A DNA stretch of 64,000 bases from positions 461,256-525,255 of the forward strand of contig NW_008705576.1 of the NCBI RefSeq assembly GCF_000186865.1, written 5' to 3'. Source of the stretch: Aureococcus anophagefferens (Eukaryota; Sar; Pelagophyceae; Pelagomonadales; Pelagomonadaceae). The notes under the pieces are model-generated. The model was not told the origin of the DNA. It did no database searches and saw nothing but the letters and a program-made list of their open reading frames with translations. A program made the translations under genes and the position numbers. Position 1 is the stretch's first letter. Every line of letters starts with the position of its first letter. Shown piece by piece: positions 232 to 61,600 of the stretch.

Positions 232-1852
232 GTGCCATTCATGCGCATTATCATCGCGCTCGCTCTCATGGCGACGACGACGGACGCCCTCGTGGGCCTC
301 GGCGTCGACCTCGGCACGTCCGGCGTGCGCGTCTGCGTCGTCGAGCGCGGCGCTCGGGGCGTGTCGATCCTCAGCGAGGGGGCGACGCGCTGGACCGACG
401 ACGAGGGCCGCGAGCCCGCCGTCTGGCTGCGCGCCCTGCGCGAGACCATCGCGAAATGCGACGACGCCGCCGTGGCGCGCGTCGGGCGCGTCGCCGTCTC
501 CGGCACGTCCGCGTCGACGCTGCTCGTGGACGGCGCGACGGGCGCGGTGCGGCGGCCGCCGATGATGTACTCCGACGCCGTCGGCGGCGACGCCGGCGCC
601 GCGGCGCTCGGCGCCATCGACGCGCACGCGCCGCCGGGCCACACGTGCCGCGGCGCGACGTCGGCCCTCGCGAAGCTCCTGGCCTGGGCCGCCGACGCGC
701 CGCTGGGGGCACAGGACGTCGCGGCGCACCAGGCGGACTACGTGGCGGCGGCGCTCTGCGCGGGCGTCGACGGCGAACAACTCGCCGCGCCGCCGGCGCT
801 GCGCAGCGACTGGCACAACGCTTTGAAGATGGGCTTCGACGTCGTGGAGCTGCGATGGCCCGCCTGGCTCCTCGAGGGCGCGATGCCCGCGGTCGGCGCG
901 GCGCCGGCCGCCCTCGAGCGCCTCGGCGTCCTGCGCCCCGGCGTCGCCGACGAGCGGCGCGCGGTCTCCGAGGCGGCGGCGGCGCACTGGCGCCTGCCCG
1001 AGGGCGCGGCCGTCGTCGGCGGCACGACGGATTCCATCGCCGCGTTCCTCGCGTGCTCCTGCGACGCCGCGGCGGGCGTCGTCCGCGTCGAGCCCGGCCG
1101 CGCGGTCACGTCCCTCGGCTCGACGACGGCGCTCAAGCTCGTGAGCGACGTGAAAATCGACGACGCGGCGACGGGCGTCTACAGCCACCGCCTCGACCCG
1201 CGCGGAACTCGAATCTTCAACCCGACTTCAATGTGCGCCTATGCGACGGTCGTGATGCGAGCTTTTTCACCGTGCTTCGAGAACTCGACGAGAGCGATCG
1301 ATTCGTCCAGAAATCAGCCGAATCGACGTCGAATCGACCGAGCGAGAGAGTTCCGAAGTTTGGTCGGGAGAACCCAGCTCACTGTTTGATTTCGGCACAG
1401 GCCTCGACGACGCGTGGCTCGTCGGCGGCGCGTCGAACGCGGGCTGCAAAGTCCTCCGCGACTTTGCCTTCGGCGACGACGAGCTCGCGGCGCTCTCCCT
1501 GACGCTCGACGCGGCGCGCACCAACGACGCGGGCATCTACCCGCTCTCCAAAACCGGCGAGCGCTTCCCGTTCAACGACGCCGCGAAGGAGCCGAAGCTG
1601 CCCGGCGGCGACGACCGCGAGGCCGTGCTCCACGACCTCCTCGTGGGCATCGCCGACGTCGAGCGCCTCGGCTACGCGGCGCTCGCGGACCGCGGCGCGA
1701 CGCCGCTCCGGAGCGTGCAGACCGCGGGCGGCGGCGCGAAGAACCCGCAGTGGCGCGCGCTCCGCGAGGCCATGCTCGGCGTGCCCGTGGTCGGCGCGGA
1801 GAACACGGACGCGGCCTTCGGCGCGGCGCTGCTCGCGCTGCGCGAAGCGTAA
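232..1852 (+). CDS. FGGY-family sugar kinase, D-ribulokinase/XK1-like, interrupted by an introner
   Basis: Exons 232-1189 and 1401-1852 give 469 aa. The N-terminus looks like a signal or plastid-targeting peptide (hydrophobic IIIALALMATTTDALVG), then the FGGY phosphate-1 motif GVDLGTSGVRV begins about residue 23. Residues around the splice junction read SHRLDDAWLVGGASNAG, a segment typical of the cyanobacterial/plant D-ribulokinase (XK1-like) group, and GGGAKNPQWRALR near the C-terminus is the family's adenosine-binding region. Expected activity is ATP-dependent phosphorylation of a ketopentose, probably D-ribulose, in the plastid. The intron is a complete family-2 introner with target duplication; splicing GC(1190)-AG(1400) is phase 1 and restores the conserved junction. 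The gene converges on the DUF2214 gene with a 27-bp gap. An alternative start is Met at 241. Family is clear; substrate is inferred. Confidence 0.85.
1198..1400 (-). mobile_element. introner element G (family 2), body antisense to host gene
   Basis: This is a 203-bp element inside the FGGY kinase. The direct 8-bp target duplication gcctcgac lies at 1190-1197 and 1401-1408. Termini are ccgcgcggaactcgaa and, on the other end, ctgtgccgaaatcaaa read inward, so the inverted repeat is diverged. The intron is 1190-1400 (211 bp): donor GC from target copy 1, acceptor CAG from the element end. The core shared with family 1 lies in the opposite direction to the gene, so this copy splices antisense. Close relative: the copy at 21012-21214. 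Confidence 0.9.
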
Positions 1853-1879
1853 CGCGCCCGGGGAAGCGGCCGGCCCAGC

Positions 1880-2743
1880 TTACGCCTCCTGCCAGTCGAG
1901 GGCCTCCTTGGCGTACTTGTAGCCGAAGCCGCCGAGCGCGAGCGCGACGGGCGCCGCGCCCGCCTGCCAGGGCAGCCAGTCCGCGTAGGCGACGCCGCGC
2001 GCCATGAGCGTCGCCGCGAGCGGGATTGACGCGATGGCCAGCAATTCCGCGTTGACGATGGACGTCATCCGCTTGACGAGCGCCGGCGACGGCGGCGGGA
2101 TGGACTCGCCCCGATCCGTCGCCTCCTTCTTCGCGATCGCGTGCTGCACGATCTTGATGGTCGGGAAGTAGGAGGCCGAGCCCATGATCGCGAAGAGCAC
2201 CATCTTGCACCAGAAGATGGGCTCGTGCGCGTAAAAGTCCCAGCCCTTGCCGTACTGCGTGACACGTTCGTACCCCGAGACGAGCACGAGCACGCCGGCG
2301 ACGCCGTAGGCGATGTCCGCGTTCGCGAGGCGGTCGAACTCGTCGTCGCTCATGTCCTCGTTGAGCGTGATGCGCTCCGTGACGAGAGCGCCGACGACGC
2401 CGATAAGGCCGGCGTAGTGCGCATACGCCGCCAGCGCGCTCGGCAGCGGCGCGGCCGAGGTCGCGGCGGCCGCGGGGGATGTCGTGGCGAGGGTGAGCGC
2501 GACTGCGACTGCGGATGCGCTTGCAGCACTGTGCCGTGCCTTGGTGGGCGCATGTGGGAATGCGGATGCAGCGCTTTGCCGCTGCGGCGCCTTGGTTGGC
2601 GCCTGTGGCGCTGTCGCAGGCCCAGGCGGTCCACACCGGCGTGTTTTCAACCGTGGTGCATGGCTGCGGCTTCGAGGCACGTTTAGCGCCGACGTAGCGG
2701 TAAGCACAATAGCATAGAGACAGGCACGCATTGTCGCGCCCAT
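1880..2743 (-). CDS. DUF2214-family plastid membrane protein
   Basis: The frame encodes about 287 aa from Met at 2743 (Met at 2731 is also possible). The start MRACLYAIVLTATSALNVP resembles a signal peptide plus plastid transit start. A low-complexity Ala/Pro/Thr stretch, probably the transit region, precedes a mature domain beginning near LPSALAAYAHYAGLIG. Four hydrophobic helices and the segment YGKGWDFYAHEPIFWCKM match the DUF2214 membrane family found in cyanobacteria and algae, whose role is unknown. The C-terminus ends ...ALDWQEA. It converges on the kinase gene (27 bp) and is divergent from the next plus-strand gene. Confidence 0.75.
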   Translation of the reverse strand: MGATMRACLYAIVLTATSALNVPRSRSHAPRLKTRRCGPPGPATAPQAPTKAPQRQSAASAFPHAPTKARHSAASASAVAVALTLATTSPAAAATSAAPLPSALAAYAHYAGLIGVVGALVTERITLNEDMSDDEFDRLANADIAYGVAGVLVLVSGYERVTQYGKGWDFYAHEPIFWCKMVLFAIMGSASYFPTIKIVQHAIAKKEATDRGESIPPPSPALVKRMTSIVNAELLAIASIPLAATLMARGVAYADWLPWQAGAAPVALALGGFGYKYAKEALDWQEA

Positions 2744-3457
2744 AATGCGAGCCAGAACGACAAGGTAGAGGGCAAGGACAGATAGTGAGGTCAAGGACGA
2801 TCGAATCGGCGTTGGCGCGCCGTCCGCCGGTCGAGATCTCGCGCGCGCGCGAAGCGATTGGCTGGGCGGACGCGGAGCACCGCACGCGCACGGCGCACGG
2901 GAAGCCCGACTCTCCAAGCGGTGATGGTCGAATGTGTTGATGGCCTTGAGGGATCTCGGAGGCGAGATCCCTCGTTCGATTTACACATTGTTTGCCCTTG
3001 CAGACATCACGATGATGGGGCTCTCGGCCAATCGTCGACGCGCATCGCGCAGCTCATCTCGGCCAGCGCGTTGTCATGGCGCCCTTCGTCGTGGTGCGCG
3101 GCCTCGGCTGGCGGCGGCAGCGCGGTGCGATGGGCGCCCTCGGGGCTGCCCTCGAAGCCGCTGGGCTCCCGCGGGACCGAGCTTGTCTGCGTCGCCTCCG
3201 TGCCGACGAGGCCCTCGCTGAAAGCCGTCCGGACCTGCAGATCCTCGCGCGCGCCGCCGCTTTGCTCCACCGTGCGCCGCGGCGTCCACCATCGCGCGCG
3301 CACACACCCGTCGCATAATCTGCCGCGCGCGCCGCGCGGCGGGGTCGCGGGCGCCCCGAGAGTGTCCGACGATGTTCACCACCTGATCTCCTTGCAATCA
3401 CAGGTCCTACTGGTCCGACTGCAGCACGACGTCGCGTCGCCCGAGTCGAGCGGCCTG
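2744..3457. other. 714-bp divergent intergenic region
   Basis: This lies between the DUF2214 start (2743, minus) and the chosen start of the repeat protein (3458, plus). It contains an 11-bp-arm hairpin at 2948-2973. The plus-strand frame of the downstream gene is open from 2858, so a longer N-terminus cannot be excluded, but the encoded sequence lacks recognisable features and has many codons unlike the neighbouring genes. Confidence 0.5.
2948..2973. repeat. perfect inverted repeat, 11-bp arms, 4-nt loop
   Basis: The arms gagggatctcg (2948-2958) and cgagatccctc (2963-2973) are exact reverse complements separated by gagg. It lies in a divergent promoter region. A hairpin of similar size and ending occurs at 25101-25123, also between divergent genes. 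Confidence 0.8.
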
Positions 3458-3527
3458 ATGCCGACGCCGACGCCACCGACGGAGCCGCCGACGCCGCCGC
3501 CGGACCCGCCGCCGCCGACGCCGCCGC

Positions 3528-3569
<42 letters not shown>

Positions 3570-5668
3570 GGCCGCCGCGCCGCTGGGGCCGCTGGCTCGA
3601 CCCTCCGATCCCGGAGAAGGTGGGCGTCGGGCTCGACGTCGACGACGACGAAGCGGCGCGGCTCGCCGCCTGCGAGGCCGACGAGTCGCAGACGGTGCCG
3701 GTGACCGCCGCGCTCAACGAGGACTCGCCCGGCGAGGCCTGCGACGGGGCGGCGAACTTCGCCGGCGGCCTGCAGGGCGTGCTCATGGCCGCCGTGCTCG
3801 GCTGCATCATCGGCGACATGGGCGAGTCCGTCAACGTCGCCACGAGCTCCGTCGCGGCCGTCATCCTCGCGGCGCGCATGGGCCGCACGGCCTGGCGCGA
3901 GGGCACCAACCGGCGCTCCCTGTCGATCCACGACAGCGAGGACGCCCAGAACCAGTCGATCTGGGACAGGCTCGAGTGGCTCGCGCCGCACGGCGTCGCC
4001 GGCGTCAAGGCCTTCACCGAGTTCGTGTTCCCCGCGGGGCCCAACAAGCACGTCCGCATGCACGTCAACGGCCCGACGCAGCAGGGCTACGTCGCCCTGG
4101 GCACGCACCTCGACGCCCACATGTGGGACTGGCTGAACTGCCAGATGCGCCTCGTCTTCGCGACGGCCACGGCGACGATCGTCTTCACCGTGATGGCCGT
4201 GGACGGCAACCTCGACCCGCTTTCCTCCAAAGTCTATGCCGCCTTCAAGCTCACGGTCCCCGCGGGCACGGCCTACCTGCTCGGCCCGCTCCTGGCGGGC
4301 CACAGGAACATCGGCTTCGTGTTGATCAACGGCAAGCGCTGCGCGCTGCGCGTTTTTCACACCGTCTTAGGGATTCGCGACTGGCGCTACGGGCTGATCC
4401 TATCGTGGTCGGTCACACCCGACGAGGTCGACGGCGAGGTGGCGCGCGTGCGCGCCCTCGCGGCGGAGCTCGTCGAGCTCGACGACGACGACCCGGATGT
4501 GCTCGCGGCGCTCGAGGACGAGGAGTCGGAGAACGCGCGCAAGGACATCCGGGCGGAATACGTCCGGTACCAGCTCCTGGAGCGCCGCAAGCGCGAGGCG
4601 CTGTACCGCGCGACGCACCGCGACGAGATCCGCGCGCGCAAGGCGCTGCACTACGCGACGCACCGCGACGAGATCCGCGCGTACCAGGCGCAGTACTGCG
4701 CGACGCACCGCGACGAGATCCGCGCGAGCCAGGCGCAGTACAAGGCGACGCCGAGCGGCCGGTGCGCTGTTTTGTCGAGCCAGCTCCGCGACAAGTACGG
4801 CACCGACGACGTCGCGGCGTTCTCCATCGCGGATCGCTGCCGCCTCGCGGCGGCGCTCCGCGCCGCGGCCGCGGCCGACGGCGTGCCCACGCTCGGCCCC
4901 GTCGCGGAGATCGCGGCGCTCGAGACCGCCATCTTCGTACCCCGCGATTTCGCGGGCAGCGTCCAGCAGTTCCAGGTGCCGCCGCCGTACTACGTCCGCT
5001 TCGATCCGACGTCCGACGTCGACGTCCGCTGCTGGGCCTGCGGCTACGAGATATGCCCGGTCGATCTCACGCAAAAGGGGACGCAGTGCTTCTCGTGCCC
5101 GCACTGCCTCGCGGCCGTGCTGCGTCCGAACTGCGCGACGCACCGCGACGAGATCCGCGCGAGCCAGGCGCAGTACAAGGCGACGCCGAGCGGCCGGTGC
5201 GCTGTTTTGTCGAGCCAGCTCCGCGACAAGTACGGCACCGACGACGTCGCGGCGTTCTCCATCGCGGATCGCTGCCGCCTCGCGGCGGCGCTCCGCGCCG
5301 CGGCCGCGGCCGACGGCGTGCCCACGCTCGGCCCCGTCGCGGAGATCGCGGCGCTCGAGACCGCCATCTTCGTACCCCGCGATTTCGCGGGCAGCGTCCA
5401 GCAGTTCCAGGTGCCGCCGCCGTACTACGTCCGCTTCGATCCGACGTCCGACGTCGACGTCCGCTGCTGGGCCTGCGGCTACGAGATATGCCCGGTCGAT
5501 CTCACGCAAAAGGGGACGCAGTGCTTCTCGTGCCCGCACTGCCTCGCGGCCGTGCTGCGTCCGACTCGGAACCAGTGCCGCGTCTGCGGGAAGCGCTTCG
5601 ATACCGCCCGCCAGCTTAGCGGGCACCTTTACAACCAGCACACCGCGCTCGAACGCGACGGCTACTAA
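3458..5668 (+). CDS. proline-rich, ATHRDEIRA-repeat and zinc-finger protein with internal duplication
   Basis: The frame encodes 736 aa from the chosen Met. Order: a Pro/Thr-rich stretch (about residues 2-40); an acidic linker; a domain with hydrophobic segments (GVLMAAVLGCIIGDMGE and, later, TVPAGTAYLLGPLLAGH) that may be membrane-associated; an acidic helix; then basic 16-residue repeats containing ATHRDEIRA; then a module with a possible zinc ribbon (CWACG ... CFSCPHC). That module is repeated once by an exact 145-codon duplication. The protein ends with a C2H2 finger (CRVCGKRFDTARQLSGHLYNQH is slightly over one finger; key residues C, C, H, H). It may bind DNA or RNA. No family is recognised for the N-terminal half. 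An upstream start (2858 frame) is possible. Confidence 0.6.
4696..5564 (+). repeat. in-frame 435-bp tandem duplication
   Basis: Copy 1 is 4696-5129 and copy 2 is 5131-5564, with a period of 435 bp (145 codons). By eye the copies are identical, and their translations are identical. It adds a second ATHRDEIRA repeat plus zinc-ribbon module. Within copy 1's start the 48-bp ATHRDEIRA unit is itself tandem (starts near 4611, 4659, 4707). Either a very recent duplication or an assembly duplication. Confidence 0.9.
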
Positions 5669-5766: not shown

Positions 5767-8023
5767 ATGGCGCTCCGCGTGGCATTGCGAGCGGTGCGCG
5801 CCGCGCCGCGGCTCGCGCGTCGACCGTCTCTCTACGCTGCGCGCGCGTTCTCGACCAGCGAAGCAGAAGCGCCGGCGGCAGAAACTCCCAAACCCGACGC
5901 GCCGCCGCCGCCGTCCACAGAGGAGCACACGTTCCAGGCCGAGACGCGGAGTCTGCTCAACATCGTCAGCAACGCCCTGTACACGGAGCGCGAGGTCTTC
6001 CTGCGCGAGCTGCTGTCCAACGCGTCCGACGCCCTCGAGAAGTGCCGCCTGCGCCGCGTGAGCAACGAGCCGACGGCCGACGGCGACGACGAGCTCCACA
6101 TCGCCGTGACCGTCGACAAGGAGCGCAAGACGCTGACCATCGAGGACAGCGGCATCGGCATGACGGCGTCGGAGCTCGGCACGAACCTCGGCACCATCGC
6201 CCTCAGCGGCTCGAAGAAGTTCGCGGCGGAGGCGTCGAAGAAGGGCGACGACGCGTCGTCGATCATCGGCCAGTTCGGCGTCGGCTTCTACAGCGCCTTC
6301 ATGGTCGGCGACGCCGTCACCGTGGAGTCGCGGTCCGCGGACCCGGGCGCCGGGCCGGCCTACTGGCGCTCCGAGGACGGCGCGGAGACCTACGGCTTGG
6401 GCGACGGCGGGTCGAAGACGACGCGCGGCTCGAAGATCACGATCCAGCTCAAGGACGACGCCGCGGAGTACCTGGACTCCACCGCCTCAAGGAGGTCGTC
6501 CAGAAGTACAGCAATTTCGTCGCCTTCCCCATCAAGGTCGCCGGCGAGACCGCGAACGGCGTCGGCGCGGTCTGGGCGGCGGACCCGCGCGAGGTCACGG
6601 AGGACCAGTACGCCGAGTTCTACCGCCACACCTTCAAGGGCGCCTGGGACACGCCCTTCTTCCACCACCACTTCCGCGCCGAGGCGCCCCTGGACGTGAA
6701 GTGCGTCCTCTACGTGCCGTCGTTCCACGCGGAAAAGGGCGGCATGGCGCGCCTCGAGCCCGCGGTCGCGCTCTACTCGCGCAAGGTGCTCATCGAGGAC
6801 CCCTGCGAGGCCGTCGCGCCGGACTGGATGCGCTTCGTCAAGGGCGTCGTCGATTCCGAGGATCTCCCGCTGTCGATCTCGCGCGAGAAGTCGCAGGACC
6901 GGCGGCTGCTCGACAAGCTCCAGGACGTCGTCGTGCGCAAGTTCCTGCGGTTCTTACTCGATAAGGCGAAGCAGGACCGGGCCAAGTACCTCGAGTTCTA
7001 CGCGGAGTACGCGACGTTCCTCAAGGAGGGCGCGTGCCACGACCACGGCCGCCGCCAGGGCAGGACAAGAGAGCGAAATTCTCAACTTCAAAGGCTCCTT
7101 TCTCGGCCGTTTTCCACTCGTTTCGGCTGATTTTTGGACGAGCGATCATCTCTCGGAGCGGTCTCGACGCGTGGGCGCTTTTTCCGGAACGCGCGCGCGC
7201 GGAACACTCACGTTGAAGCGACGTTGAATCTCTCTTGTCCTGCCCAGGCCGCCGCGCGGATCTCGCCAAGCTCCTCTACTTCGACACGTCGTCGTCGGCG
7301 GAGCTCACGAGCTTGGACGAGTACGTCGGCCGCCTGCCCGGCGACGCCAAGGACGACGACGACAAGATCTACTACCTGCACGCGCCGACGCGGGAGCTCG
7401 CGCTGGCGTCGCCGTACTACGAGGCCTTCAAGGACTCGAAGCGCGAGTGCTTGTTCGTCTACAACGCGATCGACGACTTCGTCATGTCGAACCTGGGGAC
7501 CCACAACGGCCGGCCCATCGTCGCCGCGGAGCGCGCGACCTTCGCCGCCGGCGGCGCGGCCGAGGAGAAGACGGAGGAGAGCGGCGGCGACGAAAACGCG
7601 CCGGCGTCTCGCACACTCGACGACGCGGAGTCCGCGTTCCTCGCGCGGTGGATGGTGCGCACGTTGGACGACCGCCTCGAGTCCGTCGTGCCCACGGACC
7701 GCCTGTCGTCGTCGCCGGCGGTCCTCGCGGACGCGGAGTCCGGCGCCATGCGGCGCATGATGGCCCTCGTCGCTCAGCAGTCGACGGGCGAGGCGCTCCC
7801 GCCGCTGCCGAAGCAGAAGCTCGAGGTCAACCCGAAGCACCCCGTCGTCCTCGCGCTCCACGACGCCGCGAAGCGGTCCTCCGACGACGCGACGGCGCTC
7901 CACGCGGCGCACCAGCTCCTCGACACGGCCATCGTCGCCGCGGGCTTGATGGACGACGCGCGGACCATGATCCCGCGCCTCAACAAGCTCCTCGAGCTCG
8001 CGCTGCTCAAGCAGGATAAGTAA
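5767..8023 (+). CDS. TRAP1: mitochondrial HSP90 (TRAP1), with introner and an apparent 1-bp frameshift
   Basis: Exons 5767-7047 and 7248-8023 give 685 aa if one base is restored near 6480. The N-terminus ALRVALRAVRAAPRLARRP is a mitochondrial transit peptide. GHKL ATPase motifs: N-box ELLSNASDAL (about 81-90, E and N), DSGIGM (127-132), GQFGVGF (169-175). Middle domain: VVQKYSNFVAFPI, AVWAADPREV, SREKSQD. C-terminal domain: IVAAGLMDDARTMIPRLNKLL. The first frame ends in nonsense after AAEYLDS and the correct sequence HRLKEVVQKYSNF resumes one frame over. Loss of a single C in the run at 6479-6480 explains this. Removing the introner (GC 7048 to AG 7247, phase 1) joins FLKEGACHDHG to RRADLAKLL as in TRAP1. 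A chaperone of the mitochondrial matrix. Confidence 0.9.
7056..7247 (+). mobile_element. introner element A (family 1), sense, in TRAP1
   Basis: 192-bp element with exact 8-bp target duplication gccgccgc at 7048-7055 and 7248-7255. Inverted termini are gggcaggacaagag and its perfect complement (14 bp). The intron is 7048-7247 (200 bp), donor GC inside target copy 1, acceptor the element-terminal CAG. It includes a (CG)n tract about 50 bp from the 3' end and the motif cacgttgaagcgacgttgaa, where a branch point may lie. Confidence 0.95.
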
Positions 8024-19869: not shown

Positions 19870-22800
19870 TTAGACGTCGACGTTGATCTGCTCGGGCGCG
19901 GCGCGCCGCGGGCACTTGCAGGCCCGGCGGCAGAGGCCGCAGGGCACGAGGGCGCGCCGCGGCGGCGCCGGCGCCGGGCCCTCGACGGCGAGCACGTTCG
20001 CGAGCTTGAGGCAGTCGAGGGCCACGGGCGCGTCGCGCGGGTGGCGCCGCTGGCGCGGCCGCAACAGGAAGCCCCGGTCGAGGCAGCAGCCCCCGAGCTC
20101 GGCGACGGCGAGGAGCTCGTCGACCATCGCGTGCGTGAGGGGCCGGGGCCCGAGCGTCGTCAGCGCGCGGCGCAATTCGTGGTCGTGGACGACCTTGGCC
20201 TCGTCGCCGTCGTCGCCGCCGGGCACCTGGTAGATGGTCCGCTCCGCCGCCTTGACCTCGGACTCGTCCGCGAGCGCGCTCAAAGCTTTCAGCGCCTCGA
20301 AGACGGGCCGCGCGTCGCGGAGCTCGTCGCGCCAGTCGACGCGCTTCGCGTCGCCGTCGCGCGGCGACGCGTCGGCGTCGGGCGCCGCGGCCTCCCTGGC
20401 CAGGAGGTGGGCGTAGGCGTCGGGCGTCGGGCGGTCGCGCGGCGGCTCGCCGCCGTCCGCGTCGGCCGCCGGCGGCGCCCACGGCGCCGTCCGCGTCGCG
20501 TCGACGCCGTCGTCGTCCCAGGGCGCCTCGTCGAGCATGGCCGCGCTCTTGCCGGCGTTGAGCTCGTCCTTGGCGCCCCGGTAGTGCGCCGGCGGCAGGC
20601 CCGACGCGCCGCGGCGCGTCGGCGGCAGGCCGGGCAGCGGCCGCGCCGCGCCGTCGTCGGGCGCGGGCGACTCGCGGCCCCGGCGCTGGCTGAACGTCAA
20701 CGGGTGACGGTCCTCGTGGTCCTTCGTGTCGCGGAGCGGCGCGTTGAGCAGCTTGCGGCAGAGCGCGCGCGCGCGCGGGAGCGCCGCGGCGTCCGGCGCC
20801 TCGCAGAGCGAGTGGAGCCGCTCCAGATCCCGGCGCCAGACCGTCGTCGCCGGCAGGTCGAAGTCCGCGGGCGCGTAGCTATAGAGCGGCGGCAGGCGGT
20901 CCCGGTTCACGCGGACGTAGAACTCGCCGTGCGCGTCGACGCCGTCCGGGATCTCGCACTCGAGGTCGACGCCGGAGACGCGGATCGCGACGCGCATGCC
21001 CGCGGACCAGCCTGTGCCGAATTCAAATCTGCAACTCGACTTCAATGTGAGCGTACGCGACCGTTTCGACGCAACCTCTTCGGCCGTGCTTCGAGAACTC
21101 GACGAGAGCGATCGATTCGTCCAAAAATCAGCCGAATCGACGTCGATTTGACCGAGCGAGAGAATTCTGAAGTTTGGTCAGGACCACCCAAACCAGCGGT
21201 TGAATTCGGCACAGGGACCAGCCGCGCCTCATGACGACGCGGTGGCGCACGACGGCCTCGGACCCCGGCGCGGGCGGCTTCTTCTTCTCGGGCCGCTGCG
21301 AGCCCCGCGCGCGCGAGTGCTGCCGCGCAAAGCCGCCGCCCTGGGGCACGAGCTCGACCGTGCGCTGCGCGGGCGGCAGCGACGCGGGCCGGCCCAGCGG
21401 CGCCATGGACGGCGCCTTCTCCTCCGACGAGTCCGCGGCCGGCGGCGCGCCCGAAGACGGCGGCCGGTACCGCGCCCAGCCCGCGCCGGGCACCTCGGGC
21501 CACTCGTAGGCCGCCGGGTCCTCGGGGGCCGGCGGCGCGCCGCTCGGCGCCTCGAGCGCCGACCGGTCCTCGGCCGACGGGCCCGCCGTCGGCGACGCGC
21601 GGCCCGTGACGAAGCCGGCGAGCGACGCGGCGACGGACGACGGCGCGAGGGACGCGGCGACGTCGTCGGCGAGCGACGGCTTCGGCGGCGCCTCCTCGGC
21701 CGCCGCGGGCGGGTCCTCGACGCCCGCGACGTTCGCGTCCAAAAACCGCAGCAGCGAGCTCCGCTCCGGCGGCTCCGGCGGCGACAGGGCCTCGGCCTTC
21801 TGTTTGAGCGCCGACGTGCGCCGGCGGATCGTCGCCAGCGCGTCGTCGGACGCCGCGCGCGCGTTGACGGCGCGCGAGAAGACGCGCCACGCGTCCTGGA
21901 CGACGTTCGCGGCCGCGTGCAGGCTCCCGAAGTGCGTGTTGTAGAGCACCTCGTTGCCGAGGAGCACGGGCACGCTCGGCCGGTCGTGGGCGCGGCAGTC
22001 CCTCGCGCGCTGCAGCGCGCCGGTCAGCGTCGCGTACTGCCGCGGGTTCCACGGCGTCGGCTGCGACCCCCCAAAGTACTCGAGCAGGAGCTGCTCCGAG
22101 TACTCGTGGCCCGGGAACAGGAGGCACTTGCCGCCGCAGCGGTGCCAGATGCGCCGGAAGTTCGCCGCGACGTCCCGGGCGTCGCCCTCGAAGGGCGCGC
22201 CGCAGCCGCCGCAGAAGAGCGTGTCGCCCGTGAAGAGGCCCTCGACGGTGCGCCGGTCCTCGCCCAATAACCCGAACATGACGTGGCCCTTCGTGTGGCA
22301 GGGCGACGGGATGACCTCGATATCTAGCGCCCGCCCCACGCGGAACCGCTGGCCCGGCTTGGCGAAGTGGCTGCAGCGGTCGACGAACTCGTGCTCGCCG
22401 CCGACGACGGCGATCGTGCCCGGCGCGGCCCATAAAATCTCCGGGTTCCGCGGCGTCGCGTCGGCCTCCAGGAGCGCCCGCGCGTCCCGCGTCGTCTCCC
22501 GCTCGGCCCGGAGCACGTCGCGCACGCCCGCCTGGTGGTCCCAGTGGTGGTGCGTGACCAACAAACCCGTGAGCACGACCGGCGGCGGGCCGCCCGGCTC
22601 GGACCGCGGCGACCCGTCGTAGTTCGACGCGTAGTGCTGCTCCCGGAGCTCCGTCAGCGCACCCAGCACGGCGCCCGCGTCGCCGGGGTCGACGACGACG
22701 CAGCGCAGGGGCCCCGACGGCCGCAGCTCCACGACGACGTACGCGTAGTTGTCGAGCAAGCCCGCGACGACGTGGACGCAGCTCCGGGGCGCCTCGTCGG

Positions 22801-30550: not shown

Positions 30551-32129
30551 ATGGTCGAGACGCGGTCCGCGCGCAAGGCGAAGCGCGAGCCCAACGGCGC
30601 TTCGTCGCCGCGCGCCAGATCTCCCGCGGCGAAGGCCAGGAAGGCGCCGGCGAAGGCGGCGCCGAAGCACGTCGAGTTCGAGTTCGGCGGTCCCATCGGC
30701 GCCGGCGCCAACGTCGTGCTCCTGCCCTGCGTCGTCGTGGGCCTCGCCGTCGCCTGCGACGGCGCCTTCTGCCTCGGCCCGTCGCCGCTCGCCGCCTTCG
30801 CGCCGCCGGCGCTCGGCGAGCTTTTGCAACCGAAGGCCTTCGCCGTCGTTTTAGGATGGCTCGCGTTCCAGGCGTCGCTGCAGGTCGCCCTGCCCGGCGA
30901 CGTCGTCGAGGGCACAAAGCTCGCCGACGGCACGCGCCTGCCCTACCTCATGAACGGCCACCTCGCCTTCTGGGTGTCGCTCGCGGCCCTCGCGTGCGGC
31001 GTCCCCCGATTCGACGCGACCGGCGGCTTCGTCGGCCTCGGCGCCGCGGACCTCGCGTTCCTCTACGACGACTTCGCGCCCCTCGCCGTCGCCGCGTCGG
31101 TCGTCTCGGCGCTCCTGGCCCTGGGCCTCTACGCCGCGTCGTTCCGGCCGTCGAAGCCCCCGCTCGCGGAGCCGGGCGACACGGGCCGCGCCGTCTACGA
31201 CTTCTGGATGGGCCGCGAGCTCAACCCGCGGATCGGGTCCTTCGACCTCAAGTGCTTCTGCGAGCTCCGGCCGGGCCTCATCGGCTGGGCCGTGCTCAAC
31301 GCGGGCATGCTCTGCAAGCAGCGCGAGCTCGACGGCAAAGTCTCCGGCGCGATGGTCCTCGTGAACGCGTTCCAGCTGCTCTACGTCTGGGACGCGCTCT
31401 TCTACGAGAAGGTCATCCTGACGACCATGGACATCACGACGGACGGCTTCGGCTACATGCTGGCCTTCGGGGACCTGGCCTGGGTGCCGTTCACCTACTG
31501 CCTGCAGGCGCGGCACGGCGCGGGACACACGGGCGCGAACTTCCCAAAGGCTCCGCTCTCGGCCGGTTTCCGCTCGTTTCGGCCGATTTTTGGACGAGCG
31601 ATCGTGTCTCGGAACGGTCGCGACGCGCGGATGCTTGTTCTTTTGAGAGCGCGCGCGCGGAACGCTCACGTTGCATCACTCGTGTCCCGCCCAGGCGCGG
31701 TACCTCGTGCGCCACGACCCGGGGCTCGGGCCGGTCGCGCTCGCGGCGATCGTCGCGCTCAAGGTCGTCGGCTACGCCGTCTTCCGCGGCGCGAACAACC
31801 AGAAGGACGCCTTCCGCCGCGACCCGGCGAAGGCCATCGCCGAGGGCACGACGTTCCTCGACACGCGGCGCGGCACGAAGCTCATCACGTCCGGCTACTG
31901 GGGCGCCGCGCGCAAGGTCAACTACACGGGCGACTGGCTCATGTCCCTGGCCTGGTGCCTCCTCGCGGGCTTCGGCTCGCCCGTGCCCTACTTCTACTGC
32001 GCCTACTTCCTCGTCCTGCTCGTGCACCGCGCGCTCCGCGACGACCACGCGTGCGCGCTCAAGTACGGCGCGGACTGGCCCGAGTACAAGAAGAAGGTGC
32101 CCTACCTCTTCGTCCCCTTCGTCTTCTAG
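30551..32129 (+). CDS. Delta14-sterol reductase (ERG24/TM7SF2/DHCR7 family), interrupted by an introner
   Basis: Exons 30551-31507 and 31695-32129 give 463 aa. A basic N-terminus precedes about eight membrane helices. DFWMGRELNPRIGSFDLKCF, ILTTMDITTDGFGYML, VFRGANNQKDAFRRDP and the C-terminal LLVHRALRDDHACALKYG are family signatures. It reduces a sterol nucleus double bond with NADPH in the ER, most likely C14. DHCR7 (C7) is the alternative. Removing the introner (GC 31508 to AG 31694, phase 0) joins YCLQ to ARYLVRH exactly where homologues are continuous. Confidence 0.9.
31516..31694 (+). mobile_element. introner element F (family 1, variant termini), sense, in the sterol reductase
   Basis: 179-bp element. 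The 8-bp duplication has one mismatch: gcgcggca (31508-31515) and gcgcggta (31695-31702). Termini are cggcgcgggacac and ...gtgtcccgcccag. The mismatch is a C/T: the exonic copy encodes conserved Tyr (ARYLV), so the intronic copy is the one likely to have drifted. The body is shorter and more diverged than copies A-D, suggesting an older insertion. Confidence 0.9.
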
Positions 32130-35627: not shown

Positions 35628-38159
35628 ATGAAGGCCATGTACAAGAGCGTGAAGCGCGCCGTGGGCATCAAGAGCAGGAAGCCCCCGAAGGACGGCGACG
35701 ACGAGCTCGCCGCCGTCGCCTCCGAGGAGGCCGGCCTCTGGAGCTCGCCCGACGAGGACGCCAAGCAGGCGTTCCAGCGCGACAAGTGGCTGCCCTTCTT
35801 CCGCGAGGTCGACGGCGCCGTCAAGGCGACCCGCAAGCGCTACGAGGAGGGCGTCGGCTTCGAGGCCGTGCTGCCGCCGCAGGCCGACTGGGCCGCGTGG
35901 ACGACGCGATGCCGCGCGCTCACGCTCGAGTGGCACGGCTCGCCGAACGTGTCCATGCTCTACGAGGCGCTCATCGAGTGCAGCGAGCACGACGGCGAGG
36001 CGCCCTACCGCTTCGAGCAGGTGCCGCACAGGGCAGCACAAGAGAGCGAAATTCCCAACTTCAAAGGCTCCTCTCTCGGCCGGGGGTTCCGCTCGTTTCG
36101 GCTGATTTTTGGACGAGCGATCATCTCTCGGAACGGTCTCGAAGCGTGGATGTGTTTTCCCTAACGCGCGCGCGCGGAACACTCACGTTGAAGCGACGTT
36201 GAATCACTCTTGTGCTGCCCAGGTGCCGCAGACGAGGTCCGCCGACGGCTGGGTCCGCGCGCTCGACGCGGGCGTCCGCGGCTCCTTCTACGGCAAGGGC
36301 GTCGCGCGGCCGGAGCGGCACGACCCGCTCAAGCAGCAGGTCGGCGAGTCGCCCATCGACAACACCATATTGCCCGCGGTCATGACGACGCACGAGGCGC
36401 GCGTGCTCCTCGTGGGGAACCGCATCCGCGGCTTCCTCGTGACCTACGTCCGCAAGAAGCAGCGGAAATACGTCGCCGCGCTCGTCGCCCAGGGCGCGTT
36501 GGAGCCGGGCGTCGACGAGGGCGGCCGCGAGGCCTTCGGCGCCGCGCTCGCGGCCGTGCCCGACGCGGCGCTCGCGGCCGCGGGCGTCGACGCGGCGTCG
36601 ACGGCCTGGGCGCGCCTCAAGGCCAAGGGCGCCTTCATGGTGTCCTTCGGCCAGCTGACCATCGAGCGCCAGCGGAGCGTCGACGCGTTCCTCGACGACG
36701 CTTTAAAACGAGTCTCCGCGTCGCCGAAGAAGGCGAGCCGCCGCTTCTCGAGCGTCGCCGCGCGCGCGCTCGCGGACGCGCGGCGCGCGGACGCGCCGCC
36801 GCCGCCGCCCGAGGACCCGGCGCTCCTCGCGGAGTTCGTCGCCTTCGAGCACGCCCACCCGGGCCGCGTCTTCCGCGGCGACGATTCGCTCCACGAGCGC
36901 CTCGTCATGGCCGCGCTGCTCTCGCCCGAGTTCCGCGTGCTGAAGCGCAGCGTCGTCGAGCAGTTCACGGACCACCGCTACATCGCGACGCCCTGGACGC
37001 GCAAGGTGCCCCTCGTGGGGCTCGGGGACGGCGGCGAGCGGGCGGTGCTCCGCGACGCGGGCGCCGCCGAATTCTCGCGGCTGCGGAAGAACGCGTTCCC
37101 CTACGCGGACAGCCACGGCCTCGGCGTCACGTCCGGCGGCGTCGCCGAGGCCGTGGCGGACGACGGCGGCGCGGCGCCGAAGAGCCTCGCCTACGAGCTC
37201 GGGAACCTCCACGTCGTCGACGGCGGCGCGAAGCTCGGCAACTGGTGGGACTCGGCGTCCTGCGGCCGAGACGCTTTGGGGTGGGAAAACAATGAGACAT
37301 CGTCACCGCCATGCTTCATAGGTGGAACAGCGACTTCGAGAAGAACTTGTCCGAGGTCGTCGCGCTGAACCCGCTGGGCCCGCCGCTCCGGGGCGAGGCC
37401 TACCACGACGTCGGCCAGAACCCGCGCGCGGCGTCGTCCATCGGCGCCACGCAGCACACGCAGCTCATGCGCGGCGGCGCCTACTGCTGGCCGCTCCTCC
37501 GGCTCGCGTCGCCCGCGCGGACGCGCGTTACCATCCTCGGGGAGCGCGGCGGGCCCGACGCGACGGACGTGGACGTCGACATCTGCACCGTGGGCGCGCA
37601 CGCCGACGCGTTCCTGCTGGTCCTGGAGTCGTCGTACGTGTCGTCGCCGCCCGTCGTCCGCCTCCTCCAGGACCTCCGGCTCCATCTGATAGACAAGTAC
37701 GAGGCCAAGGCCATCGACTTCAACCTCATGTCGGCGCCCCTGGGCCACGACGGCGAGTCGACGAACCGCTTCCGCGCGAACCTGGCCGTCGTCGCGGCCC
37801 TGCGGAAGGACTGGCCCGTCTACGAGAACCCGCTCACGGGCGAGAAGACGAGCGACGAGGCCGTCAAGAGGGACCTGCCCTGCCCGACCGTCGACGCGAG
37901 CCAGGGCAAGGGCAACTTCTTCTACAACAACGACGTCGAGCAGGAGATCGCCATGCGCGGCCGGCCCGCCGTCGCGGCGCTCTACGACTTCAACCGCGTC
38001 CCCGGCGCGCGCGCGATCGTCGCGGCCTACCTCGCCGACAAGTTCGGCTTCGCGGACCAGCCCGACGTCAAACCGACCTGCGTCGACGTACCCTTCCCGC
38101 GCGTCGGCCACAAGTCCGCCTTCGCGGGCAAGAAGGCGTCGAGGAAGTCCCTCGCCTAG
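35628..38159 (+). CDS. uncharacterised 750-aa protein, three exons, one intron an introner
   Basis: Exons 35628-36020, 36223-37244 and 37322-38159 give 750 aa. It starts MKAMYKSVKRAVGIKSRKPP, with a basic, possibly membrane-binding N-terminus. Features: WLPFFREVDGAVKATRKRYE, NTILPAVMTTHEARVLLVGN, a helical linker, LLRLASPARTRVTILGERGG and ATDVDVDICTVGAHADAF, and C-terminal NFFYNNDVEQEIAMRGRPA. I do not recognise the family. Intron 1 is an introner with a GT donor (the only GT among the eight), phase 0, joining RFEQ-VPQTR. Intron 2 (37245-37321, 77 bp, acceptor cttcatag) joins GNW-WNSDFEKN. The gene diverges from the VOC gene (169 bp). Confidence 0.7.
36029..36222 (+). mobile_element. introner element B (family 1), sense, GT donor
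   Basis: 194-bp element with exact 8-bp duplication gtgccgca at 36021-36028 and 36223-36230. TIRs gggcagcacaagag are perfectly inverted and differ from copy A by a matched G/C change at both ends. The intron is 36021-36222 (202 bp), a canonical GT-AG because the target happened to start with GT. Confidence 0.95.
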
Positions 38160-38832: not shown

Positions 38833-41294
38833 CTAGCGCCCCGCGACCGCGACCGCGACGACGGCGGCCGCGGCCGCGGCCGCGACCGCGCGCGCGAGCT
38901 TGACCAGGCCCGCGCGGCGGTCGCGGGCGGCCCAGCGCGCGACCTTCGCCGCGTCCGCCGATGCGTCCGCGCCGCGGGCGAGCCTCCGAACCAGACCGTC
39001 GCTGACGACCTTCGCCAGGGCCATGGTCGTGATCATGGGGTTGACGCCCGACGCCGTCGGGAAGAGCGACGCGTCGACGACGTAGAGGCCCGGCAGCTCC
39101 CAGGACTCGCCGGCGGCGTCGACGACGGAGTCGCGCGGCGAGCGCCCCATGCGGCACGTGCCCATCTGGTGCGCCGAGAGGAGCCTGGGCAGGACAAGAG
39201 TGCGAAATTCCCAACTTCAAAGGCTCCTAGCTCGGCCGGTTTCCACTCGTTTCGGCTGATTTTTGGACGAGCGATCATCTCTCGGAACGGTCTCGAAGCG
39301 TGGATGCTTTTTCTAGAACGCGCGCGCGCGGAACACTCACGTTGAAGCGACGTTGAATCACCCTTTTGCTGCCCTGAGAGGAGCGTCGACCGGTTGTCCG
39401 ACGCGAGGCCCCGCGCGCGGACCTCGGCCGCCCAGGCGTCGACGCGCTCGTCGCGCTCGGCGCCGTCGCGGCCCGCGAGGTCCGCCGTCGGCGGCGCCGC
39501 GGTGTGCATCGACGCGATTCGGGTCGCGCCCGCGGCCGCGAGCACGCGGCCGCAGGTCACGAGGGCCTCGGTCATGCTCGCGGCGTCGCGCGGGTCCAGC
39601 GCGTAGTCGACCAATGGCTCGCGGTCGCCGGCGCTCAGGCGCACGCGGCCCTCGCCGACGTCGCGCTGCAGGACGAGCGCGGACACGAGATGCGACGCGC
39701 CGTAGACGAGCTCGCGGCAGTCGCGCGCGCCGAGCCAGGGGCAGGCCGTCAGCGCGATGCCGAGGCCGCTGTGGGGCACCTCGATGAGCGCGCCGTAGCC
39801 GTCGCCCTTCGGACCGGAGACGTGGGCCTCGCACGCCGCCGTCATGGGCGCGCCGTCGCCGATGGCCAGCAGCCCGCTCGCCGACAGGGCGCGCGCGTCG
39901 ACGCCGTCGAAGCGCGACGCGCAGGGCGTCACGGGGTGCAGGCGGAGGTGGCGGCCCACGTGGTCGTTCGGAAACCCGCCGGGCGTCCGCAGCAGGATCG
40001 CGGGCGTGTTCAGCGACCCGCCGCTGAGCACGACGGCCTTCGTCGCCCGCACGTCCCGCGCGACGCCGCCGCGGGTGCAGCGCACGCCGACGCAGCGGCC
40101 GCCCGCGCGGAGCACGTGGTCGACCTTGACGCCGTCGGCGAAGAAGCAGCGGCCCGTCTCCGCCGCGTCGCGGAGCCACGTCATCGGCGTCGACATCTTG
40201 TTCCCGAAGCGGTCCCCGTAGGCGACGTAGGCCGCGGACTCGTCGGTCCGGTCGAGGTTCTGGGGCAGGACCCGGCAGGGGAGTTTCAAAGCCGCGGACC
40301 CGCGCAGAATCGCCCTGTTGCCGAAGTCGTGCGTCACGCCGGCGTCCGAGACGCCGAGCCGCGCGCAGACGGCGTCGAGCGCGCCGTCGAAGGGCGTCGC
40401 GCCGTCCGCGCGCGCGCAGCACGGCACGCCCAGCGCCGCCCAGTCGTCCTGGACGCGCCGCGGCGTCCGCAGCGAGCACGCCCAGTTGATCGTGCTCCCG
40501 CCGCCGAAGGCGGACCCCGCGAGGATGCCCAGCGACCCGTCGGTCGTCGCGACGAGGGCCGACCGCTCGTAGAGCTTCTCGAAGGCCGGCCCCTCGCGGC
40601 CGTCGAAGTCGTCGCCCTGGAGGAGCGGCGCCTTCTCCAAGACGAGCACCCGGTGGCCCGCCGCGCTCAGCGTCGCCGCCGCGACGCCGCCGCCGCAGCC
40701 CGACCCGACGACGACGACGTCGTAGGCCTCGTCGAGGCGGCCCCGGGGCCAGGCGTAGGTCGCCTTCGCCGGCGCGGGCGCGTCGAAGAGCGCCGGAGGC
40801 GGGCCCCGCCAGCCCGCGGCGACGTGCACCGCGTTGCGCCCGACGCCGTCGTCGACGGCGAGGGCCGCGACGCCGCCGCAGAGCCGCTTGAGGGCGTTGA
40901 AGGCCTTGCGGCGGAGCGGCAGCCTCGAGGCGGCCATGCCGAGGAGGTCCGCCTCGCGGGCCGCGAGCGACCGGTCCGGGAACGCGGCGACCCCGGAGCC
41001 CGCGAGCAGCGCCGTGCCGACGCGCGAGCCGAGGAGCGCCAGGAGCAGGCGCAGCTCGCCGCGCTCGCCCAGCGTGAGCCGGTTCAGGGACCGCTCGAAG
41101 GCGGCGCGCACCGTCTCGGACCAGCCGCCGGCCATGAGCGCCGCGAGCCGCTCCGGCGACGGGTCGGCGTCGCCGCAGGCGCGCGCGACGTCGAGCGCCT
41201 CGTCTCTCGAGACGGGCGGGATGAGCGCCGTGACGAGGCTCTCGACGACTGTGGCTTCCGCGGGCGTGAGCTTGATCATGGTCGAGGCTGCCAT
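38833..41294 (-). CDS. long-chain fatty-alcohol-oxidase-like GMC oxidoreductase, interrupted by an introner
   Basis: Exons 41294-39385 and 39184-38833 give 753 aa. After an N-terminal helical region the FAD-binding Rossmann motif appears (VVVVGSGCGGGVAAATLSAA, about 193-212) with LEKAP following. FGGGSTINWACSLRTP is the first GMC signature region. The junction region TLLSAHQMGTCRMG is typical of FAO-type oxidases, followed by LYVVDASLFPTASGVNPM, the catalytic C-terminal motif. A final hydrophobic helix may anchor it. It would oxidise long-chain alcohols to aldehydes using O2. The introner is spliced GC(39384)-AG(39185), phase 2, and its body is antisense to the gene. Confidence 0.88.
39185..39376 (+). 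mobile_element. introner element D (family 1), body antisense to host gene
   Basis: 192-bp element with exact duplication (gctcctct in gene sense) at 39177-39184 and 39377-39384. The plus strand matches copy C almost throughout, but the host gene is on the minus strand. In gene sense it begins cagggcagcaaaag and ends cttgtcctgcccag, so the terminal CA...AG follow the gene while the body is reversed. The intron is 200 bp. Confidence 0.95.
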
Positions 41295-57114: not shown

Positions 57115-58371
57115 TCATCGCCGGAGCTTGGGCTTGGGCTTCTGGATCTGGCTGTCGTCGAGGCCCGCGTCGCGGAGCGCGCGGCGCTCCGAGGGCCGCA
57201 GGCCCCGGCGCTTCTTCTCGTTCGGGTCGACGACCGCGACGGGCACGAGGGACGCGTTGTCGTCGACGAGCGGGTTCACGATGACGGGCTTGAGGTGCGC
57301 CGCGGGCATCCAGCACTCGACGAACTCCTCGCCGCCGCGCGCCTCGGCGATGGCCTCGTACGTGTGCGTGCCCTTGTAGCTCAGCACCTCGTTCCGACTC
57401 AGCTTCAGCCACCTGTCCTTGACGACCTCGACCTCGACGCAGCACCACTTGCCCTTGACGCCGAAGGTGAAGGGCTTGGAGCCGTCGCGGTTCGCCGCGA
57501 GGGGGCTCGACTTGACGACGACGCCGGACCTGCGCGCGCGGCCTCGCGAGGACGGTCCTCGGGGGGGGAAACAAAGGACGCCGCGGCCGCGCTCGATCTC
57601 GACCTTGTAGTGCAGGCTCACGGCCTTGATCGTCGACCGCGAGTCGAGCTTCGTCGGGTCGACGACGAAGAGCGTCTCCATGTCGACGCCGACGACGTCC
57701 CGGATCAGCTCCCGCGGCGCGAAGAGGACGCCGTCGGCGCCTGCGCGAGAAAAGAGAGATTCGACGTCGCTTCAACGTGAGCGTTCCGCGCGCGCGCGCG
57801 TTCCGGGAAAAGCATCCACGCTTCGAGGCCGTTCCAAGAGATGGTCGCTCGTCCCAAAATCAGCCGAAACGAGTGGGAAACGGCCGAGAGAGAAGTTGGG
57901 CACGTCGCGCTCGTTTCCCGCGCCGGCCGGCGCCCGCGAGGTGCGCGGCCATGGGGTCGATGGCGTCGCGCTTCGGGTTCGCGTTGTAGCTCTTCGCGAA
58001 GGCCTTGACCTGCGACGACGGCGTCGCGCGGGTGCGCGGGGGCCCTCGCGGCGCCGGACGCGCGCGAGCTTGGCGCAGGGCTTGTCGAGCCACGCCGGCG
58101 GGATCGTGAGCTTGATCGTGAGCCGGCTGCCGTCGTCGGCGTCGCCGCCGTTCTGCTTGTAGGCGAGGTAGACCTGCTTCGGCCGCTCCGCCGGCGCCTC
58201 CTCGACGGGCGTCGGGTTCGCGCGCTCCTCGCGGAGCCGCTCGAGCAGCGCGTCGCGCTCGCGCTCCTTCCGCTCCTGCAGCTCCTTCTTCCGCAGGTCG
58301 TCGGCGCCGATGGCGTTGACGATCTTGTAGCGGTCCGCCGCCGACGGGAACTTGCCCTTCTCCGGCGCCAT
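57115..58371 (-). CDS. uncharacterised protein, three exons, one intron an introner
   Basis: Exons 58371-58060, 58009-57934 and 57740-57115 give 337 aa. MAPEKGKFPSAADRYKIVNA starts a charged helix with ERKERERDALLERLREERAN. The domain RLTIKLTIPPAWLDKPCAKL continues across a 50-bp GT-AG intron (58010-58059) into VKAFAKSYNANPKRDAIDPM. The introner then joins AHLAG to ADGVLFAPRELIRDVV. The rest includes METLFVVDPTKLDSRSTIKA and a basic C-terminus (GLRPSERRALRDAGL, QKPKPKLRR). I cannot name the family. A Gly/Arg/Pro patch at 57540-57590 could be a further intron. Confidence 0.65.
57741..57925 (-). mobile_element. introner element E (family 1, variant termini), sense
   Basis: 185-bp element. In gene sense the duplications are gcgccggc (57926-57933, intronic) and gcgccgac (57733-57740, exonic), one mismatch. 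It begins cggcgcgggaaacgag and ends ctcttttctcgcgcag; the inverted repeat is a variant of the family-1 ends. The intron is 193 bp, GC-AG, phase 1. The body keeps the family-1 core (attttgggacga). Confidence 0.9.
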
Positions 58372-58651
58372 GGCGCGGGCGGAACGGCGGAAGACGACAC
58401 GGAGAGGCGGCGGGGCTGCTGGGTGTCGAGCTTCAACAAAACTTTGGCGGCCAAGTTGAATCGGCGCCCAAAAATTTCTCTGTGCGCAGGTGGTCGAAAC
58501 TCGCCACGCCGACCGCCCCTCGCGCCGTCGACACGCCCCCGGGGGTCCGGGGTCCGTCCCACGCGTTCGGCCGAGCGGCACAGGAGTCACAGACGAACCC
58601 CCCCGACTTTAGAGAGCGTAACGAAGCGTCGAAGCGAGGAACGGCGAAAAG

Positions 58652-61600
58652 ATGCGCCGCGCCCTGTTCGCCCTCGTGCTCCCCCTCGCCGCGGCCCTCG
58701 CCGCCGGGGCCCCGTGTAAGGCCGCCACGCGCAAGTTCTGCAAGGGCGTCAAACCTGGAAAAGTCGGCGATGCCAAGGCCGCGCGGCGCTGCGAGCGGGC
58801 CGAGTACGCCGAAGCGTGCGCCGCGTGCGGCCGGTGTAAAAAAACCACCACCCCGACGGACCGGGCGGTCTGCAAGGAGGCGCGCGGCAAGAAGAGTTGC
58901 AAAAAGGTCAAGCGCGGGGAGACGGACAAGAAGTGCGAGAAGTCAAAGTACAGGGACCGGTGCCCGGCGTGCGGCGTCTGCGGCTATTGCGGCGACTCGA
59001 AGGCGTGGCGCTACCGCGAGACCTCCGAGTTCGACGTCGGCAAGAAGAAGTGCCGGCACCTCGCGAAGAAGGCCAACAAGATGGTCGCGAAGGGCAAGAA
59101 GTACGACAAGGCGCTCAAGAAGGCGTGCAAGGTCGTCGGGCTCGACGGGACGCGCGGCCGCGACGCGTGCCCCGACACCTGCGGCACGCCCCTCGACGCC
59201 GCGACCTGCGCCGACCACATGCCGACGCCGCGGCCGACGCCGCGGCCGACGCCGCGGCCCACAGGCCCCTCGAAGACGTGCTTCGACGCGGACGGCGACG
59301 GCTGGCCTGGCGCCGGCTGCGACCAGGGCAGGACAAGAGAGCGAAATTCCCAACTTCAAAGGCTCCTATCTCGGCCGTTTTCCACTCGTTTCGGCTGATT
59401 TTTGGACGAGCGATCATCTCTCGGAACGGTCTCGAAGCGTGGATGCTTTTTCCGGAACGCGCGCGCGCGGAACACTCACGTTGAAGCGACGTTGAATCAC
59501 CCTTTTGCTGCCCAGGCTGCGACTGCCACGCGGACTGCGCGACGTGCCGGGGCGGCGCCGTCGAGGACGACGACCCGCCGGTGGCCGTCTACCAGTGCGC
59601 CACGTGCCGCCACGGCGACCTCCACGCCGTCATGACCGATCCTGGGACCGGCGCGAACTACTCGACGTGCGGCCGGACGTCCTTCTACCGGCCGGGCAAG
59701 CCGAACGCCGGCGGCGCCTGCCACCACACCTGCGAGACCTGCGGCTTCAGCTTCAACCCGCTGGGCCCCGACGAGTGCGTCACGTGCCCGCGGGGCCGCG
59801 CGTTCGCGGAGACCGCCGCCGCCGACCCCGACCGCGGGACGCCGGCGACGGGCTCGTGCGTCCCGGCGCCGACGCCGAAGCCGACGCCGGCGCCGACGCC
59901 GGCGCCGACGCCGGCGCCGACGGGCCTCTCGGCGTCCTGCTACATCACGCCGGACACCTTCGCGTTCAACGACACGTGCGCGTGTCACGAGACCTGCGCG
60001 ACGTGCGGCTTCTACGCGCCCGCCGGCGCCGGCGCGCCCGCCGCGGCGGCGTTCGACGCGTGCCTCTCCTGCCACGCCGACGTCGAGCTCCTGCCCTGGC
60101 GCGAGACGGGCTTCGACGACACGGGCTTCGCCGCCACGGGCACCTGCGGCTACACGGCGTTCGCGGCGCCGGCCGTCCCCGCGGCCGGCGCGTGCCACGA
60201 GTCGTGCTACTCGTGCCTCGGGTCGACGGCGACCTACGACGAGCCGGACCGCTGCCTCGCCTGCCCCGGCGGCGGGGCCCTGGCCGTCGTCCGCAACGAC
60301 ACGGCGTTCCCGACGGGCACGTGCGGCGGCGTCAAAACCGCGACCGTCTTCGTGCTCGTCCAGTTCTCGTTCGTCTTCGAGGCGCTGGACGCGGCGGCGT
60401 TCAACGGCGACGCGGACGCGGTCGCGGCCTTCACGGACGCGCTCGTGGACCAGCTCGACAGCGTCGTCAACGCCACGCAGGTCGCGGACGTCGTCGCCGT
60501 CGACGTCGTCCGCGACGACGCGCCCGCCGTCGCCGTCGCCTTCGACGTCGCCGTCGACGCGGTCGTCGCCGCGGGCGCGAGCTTCAACGTCACGGCCGCC
60601 GCGGCCGCCGTCGCGGCGGGCGTCAAGGCGGAGCTCTTCGGCGCGCTCGACGACGCCGCGTTCGCGGCCGCCATCGAGGAGGCCGTCGACCAGACCGGCG
60701 CGTCGCTCGACGTCACCGCGTCCAAGGACGAGCCGTTCCTCGCCCACGACTACTCCCCCACGCGCTCCCCGACGCTGACGCCGACGTCCGAGCCGACGGG
60801 CCCCTCCGCGGCCTGCTTCGCGCGCCTCCCCGGCGGCGACGTCGCCGCGAACGTCACCGCCGACGAGGGCGGCTGCGCGTGCCACGCGACCTGCGAGACG
60901 TGCGGCGTCTACGGCGCCGACTTCGCCGCCGCGTGGCCCGGCGTCGCGGCGCCGGCCGCGGGCGCGGCCGACGCGTGCCTCAGCTGCGCCGACGACGACG
61001 CGCCCTTCGTGGCCTGGCACGCCAACGGGACCGCGGCGCTCGGCGGCACGTGCGGCGCGGTCGCCTTCGCCGCGCCGGCGGCGCCCATCGCCAACGGCAC
61101 GTGCCACGCGACCTGCGCGGCCTGCCTCGGCGACGCCGGCGCGGAGACCGGCGCGCACGACGCGCCGGACCGCTGCGTCGCGTGCGCCGGCGGCGCCGCG
61201 CTCGCCGTCGTCTACCCCGCCGACGAGCTCGCCGCCGCCTACAACGCGAGCGTCGGCCTCTTCGCCGGCGCGGGCACCTGCAACGGCACCGTCGTCGACG
61301 ACGTCCGCGTCCGTTTGGAGGCGTGGATCTCCTTCCTCGGGCTCGACGCGGCCGCGTTCAACGCCGACTCGGCGAGGGTCGCGGCCTTCAAGGCCGCGGT
61401 CGCCGTCGCCGTCGCCGTCGTCTTCAACGCCACGGCCGTCACCGACGTCGTCGCGACGACGACGGTCGACAACCACCGGCTCCAAGTCGACGACTCGGCC
61501 GTCGCCTTTGCCGCGACGGTCCACACGGTCGTCGTCGCCGACGACGTCGCCGCCGAGGCGGACGCCATCGCGGCCGCCTTCCGGGCCCAGCTCACGGCGG

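Follow-up and report, generated by a model that had tools for sequence, protein, structure and literature searches.

Probable introners in Aureococcus anophagefferens with predicted splice signals drawn from target duplications and transposon ends

A 64-kb stretch of the genome of the pelagophyte Aureococcus anophagefferens (contig NW_008705576.1, positions 461,256 to 525,255; GC 71%), hereafter the window, carries eight short elements within eight genes. Our combined findings indicate that these elements are very probably introners, that is, short non-autonomous DNA transposons predicted to be removed from transcripts as spliceosomal introns. Target repeats, inverted ends, high copy number, restored reading frames and a GY...AG rule are all seen directly, both in the window and in further copies from the whole genome (49,050,692 bases in 86 contigs).

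Eight elements within the reading frames of eight genes

All eight elements were found where a first-pass annotation of the window had placed them, with the lengths (179-203 bp) and inverted ends that it described. They are flanked by 8-bp direct repeats which, again as described, are exact in six cases and carry one mismatch in the elements starting at 31516 (GCGCGGCA/GCGCGGTA) and 57741 (GTCGGCGC/GCCGGCGC on the + strand). When up to three mismatches are allowed, the 20-mer TCGTCCAAAAATCAGCCGAA matches the window eight times, once per element, versus a mean of 0.00 in shuffles (n = 100).

Removal of an element together with one repeat leaves the frame open across the junction in all eight genes, with coding-like codon use in the gene sense and the same frame scored on both sides. 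The annotation had further held that the restored frames fit known protein families in every case. This is so for four of the eight, in which homology runs through the junction (TRAP1/HSP90, delta14-sterol reductase, the C domain of a GMC oxidoreductase and the FGGY_C kinase domain), while the joined proteins at 21012, 36029, 57741 and 59324 had no Pfam match at an E value of 0.001. One junction-spanning protein is 96% identical to a database protein of A. anophagefferens, the best of 2,075 matches. The window frame of the gene around 31508-31702 (protein P0001) is continuous at a point where five residues, SGAMV, are missing from the A. anophagefferens database protein; this gap could reflect a mis-set boundary at an introner in the other strain, or a genuine deletion.

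The intron boundaries, which the annotation had left unplaced, most likely run from the start of the upstream repeat to the AG at the end of the element (Table 1). In the gene sense the upstream repeat begins with GC in seven elements and with GT in one, and AG terminates all eight. None of the predicted introns has a length divisible by three, and retention would bring an in-frame stop in six of the eight.

The elements belong to two types. F1 (~192 bp; ends CAGGGCAG...CTGCCCAG) comprises those at 7056, 36029, 39185 and 59324, plus two diverged elements whose alignments to F1 reach 85% over 136 columns (31516) and 90% over 146 columns (57741). F2 (203 bp; ends resembling CTGTGCCG...CGGCACAG) comprises those at 1198 (which begins CCGCGCGG) and 21012. 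We regard the two types as branches of one family because they align with each other at 75% identity over 93 columns, in opposite orientation (E = 5e-9). Their ends are built differently. F1 ends are unlike, with CAGGG at the gene's 5' side and CCCAG at its 3' side, and can therefore supply an AG in one polarity only, whereas F2 ends are alike (CTGTG...CACAG) and thus supply an AG in both.

Table 1 Predicted introns in the window, with their elements, target repeats and host genes
Intron	Position	Strand	Type	Element	Target repeat (gene sense)	Host gene
1	1190..1400	+	F2	1198-1400, 203 bp	upstream GCCTCGAC at 1190-1197; downstream copy 1401-1408 is exon	FGGY-type carbohydrate kinase
2	7048..7247	+	F1	7056-7247, 192 bp	GCCGCCGC	TRAP1/HSP90
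3	21012..21222	-	F2	21012-21214, 203 bp	donor repeat GCTGGTCC at 21215-21222	joined protein without Pfam match
4	31508..31694	+	F1, diverged	31516-31694, 179 bp	GCGCGGCA/GCGCGGTA	delta14-sterol reductase family
5	36021..36222	+	F1	36029-36222, 194 bp	GTGCCGCA, GT donor	without Pfam match
6	39185..39384	-	F1, core flipped relative to gene	39185-39376, 192 bp	GCTCCTCT at 39377-39384	GMC oxidoreductase
7	57741..57933	-	F1, diverged	57741-57925, 185 bp	GCGCCGGC/GCGCCGAC	without Pfam match
8	59316..59515	+	F1	59324-59515, 192 bp	GCTGCGAC	cysteine-rich protein, without Pfam match

Predicted splice signals in copies across the genome

Similar elements are abundant in the genome. A 31-mer from the F1 core (up to 3 mismatches) gave 2,083 matches and a 16-base F1 end gave 797 exact matches, with none for the reversed control of either. 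We examined 96 rows, representing 90 distinct copies (61 F1 and 29 F2, the family being set by the search that brought each row). They consist of the window's eight elements, 8 + 20 F2-like loci, 30 of the 40 best F1 matches and 30 exact core matches, the latter being the first listed and all on contig 1.

In these 90 copies the predicted intron is the target repeat plus the element. The repeats are exact in 71 copies, match at seven of eight positions in 12, and at four to six positions in 7. The predicted donor, the first two bases of the repeat, is GY in 89 of the 90 (GC in 58, GT in 31), and the predicted acceptor is the element's terminal CAG in every one. Frames are continuous across all 85 copies that could be scored, the other five having a flank too weak to score, and 86 of the 90 copies lie in a stop-free coding context, the corresponding share in the element-free window being 66% (2,462 positions; P = 1e-11). 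The annotation's view that the elements are transposon-derived introns is thus supported by thousands of similar copies, 8-bp duplications, inverted ends and restored frames.

Inverted ends and target repeats would by themselves suit any miniature transposon, and splicing is predicted here from sequence. The elements might then be ordinary miniature transposons that stay unspliced within genes, either as gene-disrupting insertions or in pseudogenes. We consider this very unlikely, since retention would shift the frame in all eight window genes, GY...AG is found in the gene sense in 89/90 copies, with a polarity that tracks the AG-bearing end, and the flanking frames are continuous in every scorable copy.

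Several other points nonetheless speak against the identification as spliced introners, beyond the predicted nature of the splicing itself. The samples are non-random, 58 rows being best matches and 30 the first listed on contig 1. The register of each copy was picked on two grounds, agreement between the repeats and ends with C first and A or T second, a choice with a slight bias toward AG; the donor played no part in it. The prevalence of GC donors (58/90) is unusual for spliceosomal introns and exceeds the 0-50% per introner family given by Gozashti et al. 2022 (PMC9860276). One F1 copy (L085, around 1501) starts with CG, in the target repeat CGCGCACC, and its upstream flank is not coding-like. 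An Rfam search of the genome for the U1 small nuclear RNA gave no match, although the controls were likewise silent. Finally, none of the fetched loci held a convincing empty site.

A single match to a U1 5'-end pattern (three for the reversed control) was not U1 according to Rfam. In the L112 element the intronic repeat, GTTTAGCG, carries GT and the exonic repeat, GCCTCGCG, carries GC, apparently through drift of the intronic copy. At loci L002 and L005 different copies came up in separate examinations, and each locus seems to hold two introners. Viral contigs gave 22 single F1-end matches, none of them an introner by blastn, and one match to the 20-mer with no similarity past those 20 bases. 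Predicted RNA folding was no better than in shuffles for one F1 intron (z = 1.36) and slightly better for one F2 intron (z = -1.57; 11/200 shuffles as good).

Orientation follows the ends

The gene-sense 5' end of the F1 copies (n = 61) is CAG in 54, CGG in 6, CCG in 1 and CTG in none, and their 3' end is CAG throughout. In F2 the 5' end is CTG in 25 of the 29 copies, and most copies carry at both ends the T that gives AG on the opposite strand. The F1 core points one way in 50 copies and the other way in 11; among the 30 contig 1 copies, whose search used the interior alone, the division is 20 to 10. In all 11 minority copies the ends are still right for the gene, and it is therefore the core that has been inverted with respect to them. 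On a tree of 59 F1 rows, built with the termini excluded and with the elements at 31516 and 57741 left out, the flipped state requires 3 changes, compared with 10.4 when labels are shuffled (0/500 shuffles as low). The F1 flip was therefore inherited, with one main flipped branch. Three copies placed near unflipped ones suggest a possible second origin, at low tree support. The F2 core is divided 18 to 11 among 29 copies, and its orientation label requires 10 changes versus 8.5 in shuffles (300/300 as low or lower), so that orientation in F2 is unclustered.

Most simply, elements would insert in both directions and be retained only when an AG falls at the gene's 3' side. The other polarity is absent among the 90 copies examined, and the pattern agrees with DNA transposition followed by a filter on spliceability. 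A preference of the transposase for GY....RC targets was considered as another source of the donor rule. Target-base z-scores, uncorrected for many tests and counted with six F1 rows out of register, before the register was corrected, were 12.2 for G at base 1, 3.2 for C at base 8, 2.8 for A at base 7 and 2.8 for C at base 5; the coding-context count and the F1 and F2 tree tests used the same rows. The mirrored signals are weak compared with that of base 1, and the donor rule therefore looks to be mostly a matter of survival rather than of target choice.

The coding context of 86/90 copies, all with a gene-sense AG end, would also be expected if the introns had spread not as transposing DNA but as intron RNA that was reverse-spliced into new sites. 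Yet 8-bp repeats, inverted ends and an F2 core found both ways (18/11 of 29) are unexpected from a single reverse-spliced RNA strand, and the donor bases come from the target and not from the element, contrary to reverse splicing. This origin is thus highly improbable.

Under DNA transposition, insertion into a coding exon would duplicate 8 bp of that exon. The upstream repeat copy, when it starts with GC or GT, would act as the 5' splice site, and the 3' splice site would be provided by the inverted repeat at the element's end, a pyrimidine-rich stretch finishing in CAG in the case of F1. Splicing would leave a single 8-bp copy and therefore an unchanged coding sequence. Insertions in an unspliceable polarity, or at targets without GY, are presumed to be lost to selection.

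Candidates for the mobilizing enzyme

The mover is most likely a transposase of the hAT kind, to which the 8-bp duplications, the short inverted ends and the CAGGG terminus suggestively point. hAT elements have a terminal pattern C/T-A-A/G-N-G at both ends. This pattern is seen at the F1 5' end (CAG in 54/61), and the elements resemble hAT miniature transposons in target repeat size, short inverted ends and the F1 5' CAGGG; unlike in the hAT pattern, base 2 of the F1 3' end and, mostly, of the F2 ends is T rather than A.

Searching the genome with PF05699 revealed four hAT loci. Scanning for inverted ends flanked by 8-bp repeats initially gave nothing convincing; a later protein search and a comparison of two internally deleted copies, which carry exact 8-bp repeats, then defined the ends for one hAT family, CGGGGTYSGACGTAAC. 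These ends have 22 matches in the genome (up to 1 mismatch). A complete hAT element of 6,488 bp (L046/L100, C6:239891-246378) has perfect 16-bp inverted ends, an 8-bp repeat (GCGGGGGG) and a long stop-free frame matching zf-C17orf113. Its hAT dimerization domain scored 17.4 of the 21.4 bits needed in a Pfam scan, and 22.4 bits, above the cut-off, in the genome search. A second hAT-like gene is present in each of the loci L044 (C1:940600) and L045 (C13:596900), which are 4-kb stretches from separate contigs with 99% identity to each other.

As an autonomous partner of the introners the complete element was rejected, its ends being different from theirs. In a post hoc comparison these match F1 at 8/11 (p = 0.018) and 9/16 (p = 0.06) positions and F2 at 6/11 (p = 0.11), a similarity too weak for us to name the element as the partner. 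An exact-pattern search found no autonomous F1-ended copy, with partners having altered or F2 ends lying outside that search; F1 ends with an odd continuation occurred at two places, both of which showed introner interior sequence by eye. A search for KDZ transposases (PF18758) was silent, as were its controls, and it is therefore uninformative.

hAT is not the only kind of transposase with 8-bp targets, others being P, Merlin and Zisupton. The introners could have been moved by one of these or by a further, unknown enzyme, an alternative that we hold to be quite plausible, if short of probable. It would agree with the exact F1-end search, which found no autonomous element with introner ends, and with the different, weakly similar ends of the complete hAT. 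Weighing for hAT instead are the fit of the F1 5' CAGGG to the hAT end pattern and the presence in this genome of hAT elements with 8-bp repeats. Target size agrees as well, since hAT elements have 8-bp target repeats and ends of 10-25 bp according to PMC3942097.

Building on a hAT mover, we tentatively suggest that the introners may be hAT-derived and that T at end position 2, which makes the opposite strand's AG acceptor, may decide intron-making. F1 would have changed one end and become polar, F2 both ends and so be able to splice either way; the F1 interior would later have flipped at least once, with insertions still following the ends. We would put this scenario at somewhat less than probable. 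If it is true, a single substitution would lead from transposon to intron.

Relation to known introners

The introner class is already established, including in Aureococcus, as the annotation correctly said. Introner elements of A. anophagefferens were reportedly described by Huff et al. 2016, and the present elements are compared with those through second-hand descriptions. In three papers (PMC7789003, PMC9481584, PMC10228655), the introners of A. anophagefferens have direct repeats, inverted ends and both orientations, a characteristic length of ~210 and insertion between nucleosomes. The elements here share the host, an intron length of ~200-211 bp, direct repeats, inverted ends and insertion both ways. 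They differ in that one of these descriptions mentions canonical splicing motifs, whereas GC donors prevail here. In the Aureococcus sp. example of Gozashti et al. 2022 (PMC9860276), the element itself contains both splice sites and the transcript gains 12 bp; unlike it, the window introners are predicted to take their donor from the repeat and to add nothing. The same paper reports a search for mobilizing transposases with end matrices, and its 2B legend gives 4-bp repeats in Symbiodinium. A search of the literature for introners combined with hAT, which left most subscription papers outside its reach, yielded nothing beyond a fungal genome paper. Elements of this kind are thus already known, and these very copies probably are as well; the contrast in end design between F1 and F2 may or may not already be in print.

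For the bulk origin of introns, introners offer some of the best direct evidence, and this set displays in plain sequence how both splice signals are supplied. The two related types, one like-ended and one unlike-ended, constitute a natural experiment in which orientation in the gene tracks the AG-bearing end. This contrast makes the step of selection for splicing testable, and narrows what the missing transposase should be expected to look like.

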